Source: Bryobacterales bacterium (GTDB lineage Bacteria; Acidobacteriota; Terriglobia; Bryobacterales; Bryobacteraceae). From it: 64,000 bases of DNA. Location: contig PMSX01000329.1 in assembly GCA_003167495.1 (NCBI GenBank), positions 20,430 through 84,429 on the forward strand, read 5' to 3'. Below the pieces are notes generated by a model. It did no database searches, was not told the DNA's origin, and worked only from the letters and a program-made list of their open reading frames with translations. Each line of letters opens with the position of its first letter. The first letter of the stretch is position 1. Position numbers and translations under genes: made by a program. Shown here in pieces: positions 49,855 to 54,155 of this stretch.

Positions 49855-51303
49855 ATGCCTGACAATCAACTCTCTTCAATCAATAATATTGTTGTTCTGA
49901 TGCTGGAGAACCGCTCCTTTGACCACATGCTGGGACTTCTATGTTCGGCGAGCGGCAATGTCTCGCCCACCGGTCAGCCGTTCGAAGGCTTGACCGGACA
50001 AGAATCGAACCCGGGCACCGACGGCACGGCGGTTCCGGTTTTCACAATCGCGTCCAGCGATCCCAACGCGTACTTCATGCCTGGCGCTGATCCAGGCGAA
50101 GGCTATTCAGCTACAAATTCGCAGCTCTTCGGAAGCACGACCGCTCCTACACCGCCGGTGGCAACAAACAACGGCTTCGTTAGCGATTTCAGCTACACGC
50201 TCGGCTGGGAATCGACGGAGGGCTGGTCGATTATTGCGGGCACCACCGCTAACGACATTTTGGGCGTGTTCCCGCCATCAATGCTGCCAGTGCTTTCCGG
50301 CCTTGCCAGCGGTTTCGCCGTTTGTGATTACTGGTTTGGATCTGCGCCGACGGAGACGCTACCGAATCGTGCCTTCGTGAATGCCGGAACCTCCCAAGGC
50401 CACATGGATGACAAGACCACTAAATACACGTGCCCGACCATTTTCGGTCTGCTCTCCCAAAACAACGTGTCATGGAGCATTTACGGCTACGATGAACCGC
50501 CACTGACGCGTTTAGATTTTCCGGATACAACGGCTGCTGATGACAGCCACTTCGGCGAGTTCACCGATTTCCAGACAGCCGCCGCCAACGGAACGCTGCC
50601 ATCTTATACGTTTCTGGAGCCAAGCTGGGAGGCCAGTGGGAACAGTCAACACCCGAACTATAACGTTGCCCTGGGCGAGCAACTGATTCACGACGTTTAC
50701 TACGCGTTGCGGAACGGTCCTGCCTGGAATCAGACGCTACTGATTATCACGTATGACGAGCACGGAGGCTGCTATGATCACGTGCCGCCGCCTTCGGGTG
50801 CGGTGCCGCCCGACGATTCGGTAGGCGAGTATGGGTTCGATTTTACCCGCTTTGGCCCGCGCGTCCCGACGGTGCTGGTGTCGCCGCTGATCGCGGCGGG
50901 TACTGTGTTTCGAGTGGCTGCGGGAGGCATGCCGCTGGATCACACATCTATTTTGAAGACCATCGAAACACGGTGGAATCTACCGGCACTCACGGCGCGG
51001 GACGCTGCGGCAAGCGATGTGGGAGACGTGTTGACTCTGACGCAACCACGCACGGATGATCCGCTACAGGGCGTGACGGTGCCCGTTGCCAGTGGGCAAA
51101 ATCCCAACGAAGACCAACCTTCTCACTTGCAGGAAGTGCACGCCGATCTAGTATCGCAGCTCCCAGTCCCCGATCAGCAAGGTGGAACCCACCACACAAT
51201 GCCCCAGCTGAAAACGAACAGCGACTACAAAGCCTACATCCGCGCACGCACCGAAGCGTGGCGCAACTCACGGAAACCAAGCCCGTCGGCAGCACACGCG
51301 TAA
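49855..51303 (+). CDS. Phosphoesterase (phospholipase C/acid phosphatase-like)
   Basis: A 482-residue enzyme of the PF04185 phosphoesterase family. The family start motif MLENRSFDHMLG is at 16-27 and the metal-binding part reads TYDEHGGCYDHVPPP with D301, E302 and H303. Further conserved spots are DYWFGSAPTETLPNR and FGPRVPTVLVSPLI. Such enzymes split phospholipids or phosphomonoesters. There is no signal peptide, which is unusual for a group that is often exported. The next genes are a PHS-like carrier and PstS, suggesting phosphate scavenging. Confidence 0.88.
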   Translation: MPDNQLSSINNIVVLMLENRSFDHMLGLLCSASGNVSPTGQPFEGLTGQESNPGTDGTAVPVFTIASSDPNAYFMPGADPGEGYSATNSQLFGSTTAPTPPVATNNGFVSDFSYTLGWESTEGWSIIAGTTANDILGVFPPSMLPVLSGLASGFAVCDYWFGSAPTETLPNRAFVNAGTSQGHMDDKTTKYTCPTIFGLLSQNNVSWSIYGYDEPPLTRLDFPDTTAADDSHFGEFTDFQTAAANGTLPSYTFLEPSWEASGNSQHPNYNVALGEQLIHDVYYALRNGPAWNQTLLIITYDEHGGCYDHVPPPSGAVPPDDSVGEYGFDFTRFGPRVPTVLVSPLIAAGTVFRVAAGGMPLDHTSILKTIETRWNLPALTARDAAASDVGDVLTLTQPRTDDPLQGVTVPVASGQNPNEDQPSHLQEVHADLVSQLPVPDQQGGTHHTMPQLKTNSDYKAYIRARTEAWRNSRKPSPSAAHA

Positions 51304-51324
51304 TATCCGCGGACCTCTCGACAT

Positions 51325-52851
51325 TCAAGCGATTGCTGCCTTGGACTTTTCGGGCTCGCTTGTTGCCTCGCCGATATGGTCGAGATTGACACCGGCAGTC
51401 TCGATTCGGAATTGCCACGTCACCACCGCCCCAAGCAGCGACGCGACGATCAAGCCGTAGAGCAGCAATCGCGTGCCGATCGCGACTAACAAAATCGGAA
51501 AGAGGAACGCGGTTGCAACCGCACCGATCTTGGCGAATGCGGCTGCGAAGCCGGCGCCCTTACCGCGGATTGCGGTCGGGAAGACTTCGCCGGCCAGCAA
51601 GTAGGTTTGCGCATTCGGCCCAAGATTGGTCATGAAGTCGAACAGCATGAAGCCGGCGAAAATCAGAGCGATTTTGGCACCGCCGGTAAAATCGACCGAG
51701 AGTGAAGCGAGCAATAGACCAATTGCGCAGCCGACGAAGCCAATGATCTGCAGCCGAATCCGGCCTAACTTGTCCGCCAGCAAAACGGCACAGCCAATGC
51801 CGACAATCAGCAGCGGCGTGATCAGGGCCGCACCTTTGGCGGCTAGGATATCGTTGGCGATAACGTCGCTCATGCTACGCACGTGCTCCCCCTGGTCCGC
51901 CTGTTGCCCGAGGGCCGCGGCTAGAATGGTTGGCGTGAAGATGCCGATGCCATAGGTGCCGAGATCCTGCAGGAACCACGGTACGGAAGCGAGAATCGTT
52001 GCGCGGCGATTGCGCTTGTTAAATAACGAAAAGAAGGAACCACCGGCATGTGTATGACTGCCTTCGGCGGCGTCCGGCGGCGATAGCACGATGTTCGTTG
52101 GATATTGGGGTGTACGCACAAGCAGCCTGCTAGCGGCAATCGCCGCTTTTTCGTGGGATCCACGAGTGAATAGCCAATTTGCGCTTTCGATGATATAGAA
52201 ACGGCCTATGGTGACAACCAGAGCTGGGATTACGGCGGTCGCATACATCCAGCGCCACGCGCTCAGATCAGGCACGATGACCAGCACGGTGTAGCCGGCT
52301 GCGGTGCCGGCCAAAGCACCCACGGCTTGGAATGCGAACGCACCCAGCACGAGGCGGCCACGGCTGGTGCTCGGGATGTTCTCGGAAATGATCATGTGCG
52401 CAGTGGGATAGTCGCAACCAAGTGCGAGCCCAAGTCCGAACAGACAAATCAGCAGGGAGAGAAAGTTCGTGCACATCACGGCCAAGGCAAGGAACGCGGT
52501 GAAGATAATCATCTCCACGACGAACATCGACTTACGCCCAAACTGATCCGATAAACTGCCAAGGCCGACGGCACCGATCAGAATGCCGAAAAGGCTCGCG
52601 GCGCTTAGCAAGCCATCTTGAGCGGCGTTGATATTGAATTGACGCTCGATGAGTGGCAACGCGACGCCGGTCAAGAAAACGACGAATCCCTCAAAGAACT
52701 TGCCGGCGGCGGCCAGCATCCAGATGCGCCGTTGCATCGTTGTCATTGGGGAAGAGGGAAGCGGCGTGCCGTCGGGCCAAATCGGCCGCTCGTCTATGTA
52801 GTGCTGCACCGTGCGCGGTTGGTGCGGGGCTGGGTTGGCAAAATTTGACAC
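51325..52851 (-). CDS. MFS transporter, phosphate:H+ symporter-like (PHS type)
   Basis: A 508-residue protein with about 12 helices. LGSLSDQFGRKSMFV is motif A. Three places are like the eukaryotic PHO84/PHS group: LGCDYPTAHMIISENIPSTS, PWFLQDLGTYGIGIFTPTIL and NLGPNAQTYLLAGEVFPTAI. Phosphate import with protons is thus likely, though sugar carriers cannot be excluded. It starts at GTG 52851, with AAAGGA upstream, only 16 bases after the pstS stop, so they are one operon. Confidence 0.8.
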   Translation of the reverse strand: MSNFANPAPHQPRTVQHYIDERPIWPDGTPLPSSPMTTMQRRIWMLAAAGKFFEGFVVFLTGVALPLIERQFNINAAQDGLLSAASLFGILIGAVGLGSLSDQFGRKSMFVVEMIIFTAFLALAVMCTNFLSLLICLFGLGLALGCDYPTAHMIISENIPSTSRGRLVLGAFAFQAVGALAGTAAGYTVLVIVPDLSAWRWMYATAVIPALVVTIGRFYIIESANWLFTRGSHEKAAIAASRLLVRTPQYPTNIVLSPPDAAEGSHTHAGGSFFSLFNKRNRRATILASVPWFLQDLGTYGIGIFTPTILAAALGQQADQGEHVRSMSDVIANDILAAKGAALITPLLIVGIGCAVLLADKLGRIRLQIIGFVGCAIGLLLASLSVDFTGGAKIALIFAGFMLFDFMTNLGPNAQTYLLAGEVFPTAIRGKGAGFAAAFAKIGAVATAFLFPILLVAIGTRLLLYGLIVASLLGAVVTWQFRIETAGVNLDHIGEATSEPEKSKAAIA

Positions 52852-52867
52852 GGCAATATCCTTTTAT

Positions 52868-53989
52868 TTACGCGCCTGGCTGGCGGATTTTGGCGATTTG
52901 TATTTCACTCAGCGCACGTATGGTTGTCGGTAACACGATGAAATGCACGGGGTCAAGAAAGCGTACCGCACTGCCGCCTTGTGGTGCGATGCACCAGAGC
53001 AGGAAATTGGTGATCGCCTCTGCAACCTGCGGGTTGGGCTGTTTAACCGAGACGATCGCGTATTCGTAGTTGATCAGCGGATACGAATCAGCGCCAGGCG
53101 CAAATACGAGCGTGAGGCGTTCGTCGGGTGGTGTACGCGGAGTGAGCCTCGCGGCGGCCGCAGTAATCGTTACGGCGGTGGGAAGGACGAATTTCCCATC
53201 CTGGTTTTGGAGCATCGCGGTTTCGAGACCAGCTTTATCGGCGTCGGATTCAAAGCTCGCGCCAAGATAGCCAACCGCGTAGGGTGTGCGGCCGAGGGCC
53301 TGCACCATTTCCGGATTTCCAGATACGGTCTGACTGTCGGCAACCGACGGCCAATTTACGCTTGTTCCGTAGCCAACCCGTTTCTCCCAATCGGAAGGAA
53401 CCGTTAGGCCCGATTCGCTCAAGCGGGTCGAGAAAGTTAGGAATTGGGTGAAGATGAAGGTGTCGCCAGAACCATCGGCGCGATGGATCGGAATGATGGC
53501 ATGGTGCGGCAGGTGGACACCGCGATTGAGGGCAGCAATCGCCGCCTCATCCCATTCGCGTATCTTACCGGAATAAATCCCAGCTAACACCGACCCGCTC
53601 AGTTTCAGTGAGGCGCCTCTCAACTCCGGTATGTTTGCTTCTATTGTCTGCGCCGAGATGGCGAGCGGGATGTTCAGGATGTGCGGGTTAGCCATCGCCG
53701 TATTGTCGGACATGTAGGCGTCCGATGTGCCGATCTGCACATGTTTCGCGATTACTTGAGCGATACCGTCACTCGAGTTAGTAGCGCCGACCGTTACGTG
53801 CAAGTCAGGATCAACTTTCGCGTATGCATCAACCCAAGCCTTGAACAGGGGCAAAATCAATGTGGACCCCGTTTCGGAGACAGTCACCGCTGGTGAATGC
53901 CCAGCTGCGAAAGACAAGAACACTAACCCAGCGGTGAACGCGGTAGCGCGTCGTACCCTGCGAAGCATGTTTGTGTGGCGGCCACTCAT
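52868..53989 (-). CDS. pstS: PstS-like phosphate-binding protein
   Basis: A 373-residue periplasmic binding protein with a signal (ATAFTAGLVFLSFAAGHSPA). It resembles PstS: ETGSTLILPLFKAWVDAYAK, SSDGIAQVIAKHVQIGTSDA, NIPLAISAQTIE, LAGIYSGKIREWDEAAIAAL and IHRADGSGDTFIF, which line the phosphate site. The usual PstC, PstA and PstB genes are absent; an MFS carrier follows instead. ATG 53989 has AGGAGAGGAG six bases upstream. Confidence 0.88.
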   Translation of the reverse strand: MSGRHTNMLRRVRRATAFTAGLVFLSFAAGHSPAVTVSETGSTLILPLFKAWVDAYAKVDPDLHVTVGATNSSDGIAQVIAKHVQIGTSDAYMSDNTAMANPHILNIPLAISAQTIEANIPELRGASLKLSGSVLAGIYSGKIREWDEAAIAALNRGVHLPHHAIIPIHRADGSGDTFIFTQFLTFSTRLSESGLTVPSDWEKRVGYGTSVNWPSVADSQTVSGNPEMVQALGRTPYAVGYLGASFESDADKAGLETAMLQNQDGKFVLPTAVTITAAAARLTPRTPPDERLTLVFAPGADSYPLINYEYAIVSVKQPNPQVAEAITNFLLWCIAPQGGSAVRFLDPVHFIVLPTTIRALSEIQIAKIRQPGA

Positions 53990-54155
53990 GCAGCACTCCT
54001 CTCCTGTTTCTCGAGGCTGCGGACTCGGATTGCCGCCAGCCGATGGCTTATGGTTATTCCTGTCTACCGTAACAGGCTTGGGTTGCAGAATGATGACAAT
54101 ATTGCGGCGAGACGGGAACGGTACACGGACAGCCGTTAAGACCGAAGAATTACGG

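Follow-up and report, generated by a model that had tools for sequence, protein, structure and literature searches.

The window analyzed here is a stretch of 64,000 nucleotides from a Bryobacterales bacterium (GenBank assembly GCA_003167495.1, contig PMSX01000329.1, positions 20,430 to 84,429) in which a gene for a PstS-type phosphate-binding protein is followed by a gene for a major facilitator superfamily (MFS) carrier. It lies on contig C24 of the assembly (G000: 9.39 Mb, 396 contigs, 93.92% complete, 7.59% contamination). A preliminary description of the locus placed the two genes 16 bp apart on one strand with a phosphoesterase gene facing them, and the coordinates and the arrangement both were confirmed:

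49855-51303 (+): phosphoesterase gene (482 amino acids; PF04185, 231.7 bits)
51325-52851 (-): MFS carrier gene, Pht1/PiPT-like, second of the pair (508 amino acids; GTG start; Sugar_tr, 152.6 bits)
52852-52867 (-): spacer of 16 bp between the pstS stop and the MFS start; an AAAGGA stretch resembling a ribosome site, as read from the sequence, precedes the GTG start
52868-53989 (-): pstS, PstS1-type, with a signal-peptide-like N terminus (373 amino acids; TIGR00975, 273.9 bits against a cut-off of 205)
54082-54099 (-): PHO-box-like site TTGTCATCATTCTGCAAC, 93-110 bp before the pstS start (scan; shuffle p 0.02)

The phosphoesterase gene converges on pstS and the MFS gene. The window PstS showed 45% identity (275 bits) to the PstS1 chain of structure 7dm1, which we take to be the Mycobacterium tuberculosis protein, and 32% identity (about 135 bits) to PstS of Escherichia coli. 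The six residues that presumably form the phosphate site, Thr-10, Ser-38, Asp-56, Arg-135, Ser-139 and Gly-140 in E. coli numbering, all were present in the window protein.

The carrier matched Sugar_tr and MFS_1 and exceeded no NCBIfam cut-off. Its best relative of solved structure by sequence was the eukaryotic phosphate transporter 7sp5 (117.9 bits), with the glucose carrier GlcP at 98.6 bits and a xylose carrier at 63.7 bits. Structure 7sp5 is taken to be PiPT because the named variants 9b47, 9b49 and 8fvz, which are near-identical in sequence, ranked next; the window carrier is about 28% identical to PiPT. The available text of the PiPT report lists Tyr-150, Phe-174, Gln-177, Trp-320, Asp-324, Tyr-328, Asn-431 and Lys-459 as the phosphate pocket (PMC6761603). 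Alignment of bacterial carriers showed that all eight residues were identical in 82 of 82; they occurred in the window carrier as Tyr-148, Phe-172, Gln-175, Trp-292, Asp-296, Tyr-300, Asn-413 and Lys-441. The contrary outcome named in the preliminary description, a carrier of sugars only, did not emerge: the pocket residues match those of a carrier for phosphate. An AlphaFold2 model of the protein adopted the MFS fold (pLDDT 80.4, pTM 0.81).

Conservation of the pair was followed in 80 loci that were fetched with the MFS sequence alone and that represent the best 80 of 100. A PstS of the same type stood beside the carrier in 35 of these 80 relatives, and the neighboring protein was closer to the window PstS (48-70% in most) than to canonical PstS. 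With 35 of 80 relatives that were found by the MFS sequence alone, the adjacency exceeds chance. The pair occurred in at least four phyla, Acidobacteriota, Pseudomonadota, Eremiobacterota and Verrucomicrobiota, so that it is not confined to the window, a concern raised in the preliminary description. PstS precedes MFS in four of the 35 loci (L041-L044, Acidobacteriota); the remaining 31 have the order MFS-PstS, and the genes overlap by 4 bases in L057, L064, L069, L071 and L120. Isolates with the pair include Lichenicoccus roseus, Paraburkholderia phosphatilytica, Paraburkholderia oxyphila and Burkholderia sp. Ax-1724, and in Caballeronia SBC1 and SBC2 the pair is located on large plasmids. 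Many of the loci stem from one metagenome project (JOPF), which biases the sample. PstS is cut by the contig end in paired loci L048, L052, L060, L065 and L073. The frame also is interrupted in L042:4229-5407, where the open reading frame (ORF) covers residues 1-188 and the tblastn match residues 1-369, reflecting either assembly error or decay. An apparent PstS-MFS fusion at L051 was ruled out as the two parts are in different reading frames.

Among 200 genomes of the family the pair was not seen again; the only close carriers other than that of the window were those of G157 (67%; locus L005, without PstS) and a 64-residue fragment in G112. Similarly, 297 Acidobacteriota genomes held no PstS of >37% identity to the window PstS besides the window's own. 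Horizontal arrival of the pair in the window genome would be the simplest reading. None of 32 genomes with an unpaired carrier encoded a PstS with >35% identity to the window protein, and ten of them (L074, L082, L083, L087, L090, L092, L093, L097, L100 and L118) gave no PstS match at all with the window query; the Pht1-like carrier might be the main phosphate route in these ten.

A conserved third gene was detected neither by clustering of flanking ORFs, for which gene calling was crude and shadow ORFs arise in GC-rich DNA, nor by Pfam searches with 20 flanking proteins each of paired and of unpaired loci. Isolated matches included Metallophos in a protein at L050, PhoD at the unpaired locus L095 and a PAS/HATPase kinase at L113, also unpaired. 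The phosphoesterase also was discounted as a third member of the unit because its only match above 60 bits among 82 loci was at L058 (28% identity).

The relationships of the carriers were examined in a FastTree phylogeny with PiPT as outgroup, from which the fragment L011 was left out. The 35 paired loci, the window, L045 and L053 formed one clade of 38 with support of 1.0, and all 44 unpaired carriers fell outside it. In L045 and L053 the contig stops at the place where PstS would be expected. From the PstS side, matches at E<=1e-60 were obtained in 10 of 249, 22 of 200 and 7 of 248 genomes of the families of L062, L046 and L057, respectively, and in 39 of 149 genomes of the phylum of L058; the phylum of L088 gave 2 of 246 at E<=1e-50. 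Of 41 matches in the search that yielded the Eremiobacterota pairs, 11 were outside the locus set. The resulting 75 PstS loci included 23 with MFS, 48 with a PstC-like gene (similar to that of the window genome), none with both and four with neither. Thirteen of the 23 MFS-linked loci are the same as, or identical to, loci of the MFS search and ten are new. Three of the four loci with neither partner are cut by the contig end (L200, L231 and L234) and L216 is a tandem of two pstS genes. Tandem PstS1-type genes were noted at L200:1-1619, in the MFS-linked clade, and at L216:309-2469, in the PstC-linked clade.

The MFS-linked PstS proteins formed one clade in both PstS trees. In the first tree this comprised 40 of 40 rows (SH-aLRT 99), with L042, L048, L052, L060, L065 and L073 (truncated or interrupted), L192 (the L046 gene) and L193 (truncated) left out. 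In a tree of 102 rows, 44 MFS-linked rows and the contig-edge locus L200 grouped with support of 100; L198, L199, L201, L202, L203 and L207 were left out as repeats of earlier loci, and the long E. coli branch, on which this tree carries a warning, was not used. Both kinds of PstS, MFS-linked and PstC-linked, were found within single genomes (G927, G887 and G514). Most simply, PstS changed partner once, from PstC to MFS, and has since shown no confirmed separation in the sample; we infer the direction of the switch. Distances in the PstS and MFS trees correlated with r 0.82 (n = 29), which shows only that the genes traveled jointly.

The two PstS kinds also differ in sequence. Position 17 of E. 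coli PstS, which we take to lie on the rim of the cleft, is Asn in 48 of 48 PstC-linked rows compared to 3 of 50 MFS-linked rows (duplicates included). In the accessible portions of two reports, this position is the labeling site of a rhodamine phosphate sensor (PMC6873202, PMC12049551). The mean net charge of PstS in a first set was -9.4 for MFS-linked (n = 40) and +2.5 for PstC-linked proteins (n = 23), and in a wider set, in which the gap persisted with larger overlap, -8.4 (42 distinct) and +3.7 (47 distinct). The respective MFS-linked and PstC-linked values were -11.0 and +2.6 in Acetobacteraceae, and -7.9 and +5.7 in Burkholderiaceae. Within single genomes they were -8 and +3 (window genome), -6 and +2 (G927), -17 and -2 (G887), -10 and -5 (G514), and -4 and -3 (G1459). 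At the position of Thr-141 of E. coli PstS the window protein has Asp, as in 33 of 36 MFS-linked PstS; of the other three, one each shows Ser, Thr and a gap. This residue was rejected as a marker of MFS-linked PstS since the PstS1 chain of 7dm1, deposited as a phosphate-binding protein, likewise has Asp.

The average shift on the carrier was in the opposite direction. With sides assigned from predicted helices, the periplasmic-side charge was -0.6 for paired (n = 38) vs. -2.8 for unpaired carriers (n = 44). Arg-325 and Ser-326 were present in 38 of 38 paired carriers and each in 8 of 44 unpaired ones; Arg-70 (35 of 38), Ser-132 (33 of 38) and Arg-461 (28 of 38) also were frequent in paired carriers.

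Upstream regions were scanned for PHO-box-like sites, defined as two CTGTCAT-like repeats 11 bp apart. In a first scoring of both strands over 320 bp (p<0.05), sites were found in 15 of 35 paired vs. 7 of 45 unpaired operons. The scoring was revised after this result with new weights, C allowed in the last position, restriction to the operon strand and 200 bp, and a same-locus control. Sites with p<=0.05 relative to 200-bp pieces of the same locus then were present in 26 of 35 paired vs. 13 of 45 unpaired operons, and the second scoring by shuffling gave 24 of 35 vs. 10 of 45. The site in the window, for which the shuffle p of 0.02 was obtained with the first scoring, again was top-ranked with the second. 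By these scans the operons of unpaired carriers also are above chance for such sites. The operon probably is induced by PhoB under phosphate starvation.

The adjacency in two gene orders, the single clade in each tree, the retained pockets, the enrichment of PHO-box-like sites and the opposite average charge shifts are most readily accommodated if the pair is a binding-protein-dependent, proton-driven secondary phosphate importer that arose once by takeover of a PstS1-type protein from the ABC-type Pst system, a reading to which we assign a probability of roughly 60%. The proposal draws on sequence comparisons for phosphate transport, docking, hand-over, proton coupling and PhoB control alike. 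PhoB would induce the operon when phosphate is scarce, and PstS would capture phosphate in the periplasm. The acidic face of PstS then would dock on the arginine-bearing periplasmic rim of the outward-open carrier and phosphate would be released into the cavity and pocket of the latter, after which protonation would drive phosphate inward through the carrier without ATP. The importer may be one-way owing to the binding protein, by analogy with tripartite ATP-independent periplasmic (TRAP) transporters. In evolutionary terms, a Pht1-like MFS carrier would have recruited the PstS1-type protein of an ABC Pst transporter on one occasion, after which both genes would have spread as a unit. The preliminary description had suggested that the binding protein hands phosphate to a proton-driven carrier. 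The suggestion gains phylogenetic, regulatory and surface-charge support; the hand-over itself is a step that we infer.

Several findings weigh against this importer. The top NCBIfam score of the carrier was for the aromatic acid/H+ symporter model TIGR00895 (132.8 bits; cut-off 418.55), followed by TIGR00898 (122.7 bits), GlcP (112.8 bits) and the phosphate:H+ model TIGR00887 of the PHS family (112.4 bits), the cut-off of which (610.3 bits) was not reached. According to the text available for fungal PiPT, the proton path comprises Asp-45, Asp-48, Glu-108, Arg-139 and Asp-149 (PMC6761603). Glu-108 and Asp-149 are retained in the bacterial carriers and Asp-45 is Glu; Asp-48 is replaced by Val (80 of 82) and Arg-139 by Leu (82 of 82), corresponding to window residues 57 and 137. 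The Val and Leu replacements hint at different proton coupling across the sampled bacterial Pht1-like family. The PHS-like label of the preliminary description thus holds for the pocket residues and the best solved relative and fails for the family model; as the proton path and the TIGR00887 cut-off are two defining tests that failed, PHS membership is not claimed, although a PHS-like mode of working is likely from the sequence. Foldseek placed SV2A, PiPT and GLUT3 close together for the carrier model, so that the fold leaves the substrate unnamed. The ranges of PstS charge overlap, from -17 to 3 for MFS-linked and -13 to 14 for PstC-linked proteins (distinct rows), and the Eremiobacterota pairs hardly are acidic (mean -0.5, n = 4; PstC-linked proteins of the same search, +5.7, n = 23). 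Divergence of the periplasmic side is weak as proof of docking: its ratio was 1.58 in the paired clade vs. 1.23-1.54 for clades elsewhere in the MFS tree. The charge and residue shifts are suggestive only of a new PstS-carrier contact because other clades diverge there too and the values are uncorrected for relatedness. Moreover, adjacent genes travel together whether or not their products interact.

The overlapping averages also would suit an arrangement of co-regulated but independent parts, in which a free-standing proton/phosphate carrier accompanies a PstS that traps or buffers periplasmic phosphate without docking. The 44 close carrier relatives that stand without PstS in the tree are in keeping with this arrangement as the fold evidently does not need PstS. 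We regard it as possible but unlikely: the two genes have stayed together in either order and in different phyla without a confirmed case of separation, Asn-17 is present in all PstC-linked but few MFS-linked PstS proteins, and residues on the periplasmic side are newly fixed in paired carriers. Service by PstS to PstCAB encoded elsewhere, with the MFS gene a mere neighbor, is improbable. PstA exceeded the cut-off in 20 of 23 searched genomes with the pair and PstS1-type proteins beside PstC are common, as such service would predict; against this, the pst operon of the window genome has its own PstS that is 28% identical to the window protein, two further genomes with the pair, G500 and G507, hold a PstS match beside PstA and PstC matches, and MFS-linked PstS is a clade apart from the PstC-linked proteins. 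For the first of these reasons, scavenging for another complex, an alternative in the preliminary description, is disfavored.

HptA, a secreted binding protein that is encoded near the MFS carrier UhpT of a phosphate compound in Staphylococcus aureus and that senses glucose-6-phosphate (PMC8774646, in the portion available), provides a precedent for PstS as a phosphate sensor. HptA works with a histidine kinase, and neither such a kinase nor a response regulator was present among 20 proteins flanking the pair at 17 loci, of which six lacked a Pfam match and some may be false ORFs; neither a histidine kinase nor a response regulator was found among three other window neighbors that were scanned. 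A sensory role therefore appears highly improbable. Transport of another oxyanion or phosphate compound, such as arsenate, phosphite or an organic phosphate, is equally remote. The prevalence of Asp-141 in MFS-linked PstS and the departure of the carrier's proton path from that of PiPT would allow for a different substrate, but the same Asp in PstS1, the other phosphate-site residues and the intact MFS pocket speak for phosphate.

The pair shares features with several known systems. Like the PHS-type symporters PiPT, Pho84 and Pht1, the carrier has the MFS fold and the eight pocket residues, and its best solved relative is of this type; unlike them, it is bacterial, only distantly similar to PiPT, altered at the positions of Asp-48 and Arg-139, and from a family of which only some members are encoded with a binding protein. 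With PstSCAB systems that have a PstS1-type PstS, the pair shares this protein, including the residues of the phosphate site, whereas no ABC permease or ATPase is encoded beside the window pstS and MFS-linked PstS forms its own clade. In the accessible text of reviews, binding-protein-dependent systems comprise ABC transporters plus, among ion-driven carriers, TRAP and tripartite tricarboxylate transporters (TTT) (PMC8276074, PMC5812351), and TRAP carriers are one-way because of the binding protein (PMC5812351). The pair likewise encodes an extracytoplasmic binding protein together with an ion-driven carrier. It differs in having a single MFS protein in place of two membrane subunits (Q and M in TRAP, A and B in TTT), and a PstS-type binding protein for inorganic phosphate; dependence of the carrier on this protein is presumed. 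The HptA/HptSR system with UhpT, which likewise has neighboring genes for a secreted ligand-binding protein and for an MFS carrier of a phosphate compound, is the nearest known neighborhood that can be cited from the text available; HptA is a sensor that signals to its own kinase, HptS (PMC8774646), and none was found among the scanned flanking proteins of pairs of the window type.

A search aimed at such pairs or at bacterial PHS carriers, which left most subscription journals and bioRxiv outside, found no title or abstract opening on PstS paired with an MFS carrier or on an MFS importer that depends on a binding protein. Each of the two proteins belongs to a known family or is closely related to one, and the combination alone is new as far as searched; its occurrence across at least four phyla suggests a kind of nutrient importer not found described. 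There is about an even chance that the pair is the first binding-protein-dependent secondary importer on an MFS carrier and thereby founds a class of its own. In this reading, a single transfer of a PstS1-type protein from ABC to MFS and a re-made docking face, acidic on PstS and arginine-bearing on the carrier rim, would have converted a proton/phosphate symporter that is reversible into an importer of high affinity that perhaps is one-way and serves in soils poor in phosphate. If so, the very large MFS superfamily also can become binding-protein-dependent, and genomes with the pair possess an added phosphate route that is missed by surveys with pstSCAB and pit genes only. Because a PstC-linked PstS of the same type and a carrier of the same type without PstS both still exist, the switch from ABC to MFS is open to reconstruction and testing.

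The window neighbors of pstS are the MFS, phosphoesterase, methyltransferase and ROK kinase genes, and no ABC permease or ATPase gene adjoins it. The preliminary description proposed that pst genes be sought elsewhere: on contig C104 of the same genome, two genes for PstA/PstC-family permeases, one of which exceeds the TIGR00974 cut-off, come after a pstS, with PstB outside the search. The genome also encodes one Pit carrier (PF01384; contig C162) and a third PstS-like protein on contig C183. The gene for the latter (L002:1405-2871, -) specifies a long N-terminal part ahead of the binding domain and is adjoined by an ORF (L002:470-1378, +) that by eye is CHAT-protease-like. For the window phosphoesterase, Caballeronia SBC1 and SBC2 gave the best plasmid match (65%), on a replicon other than that with the PstS-MFS pair.

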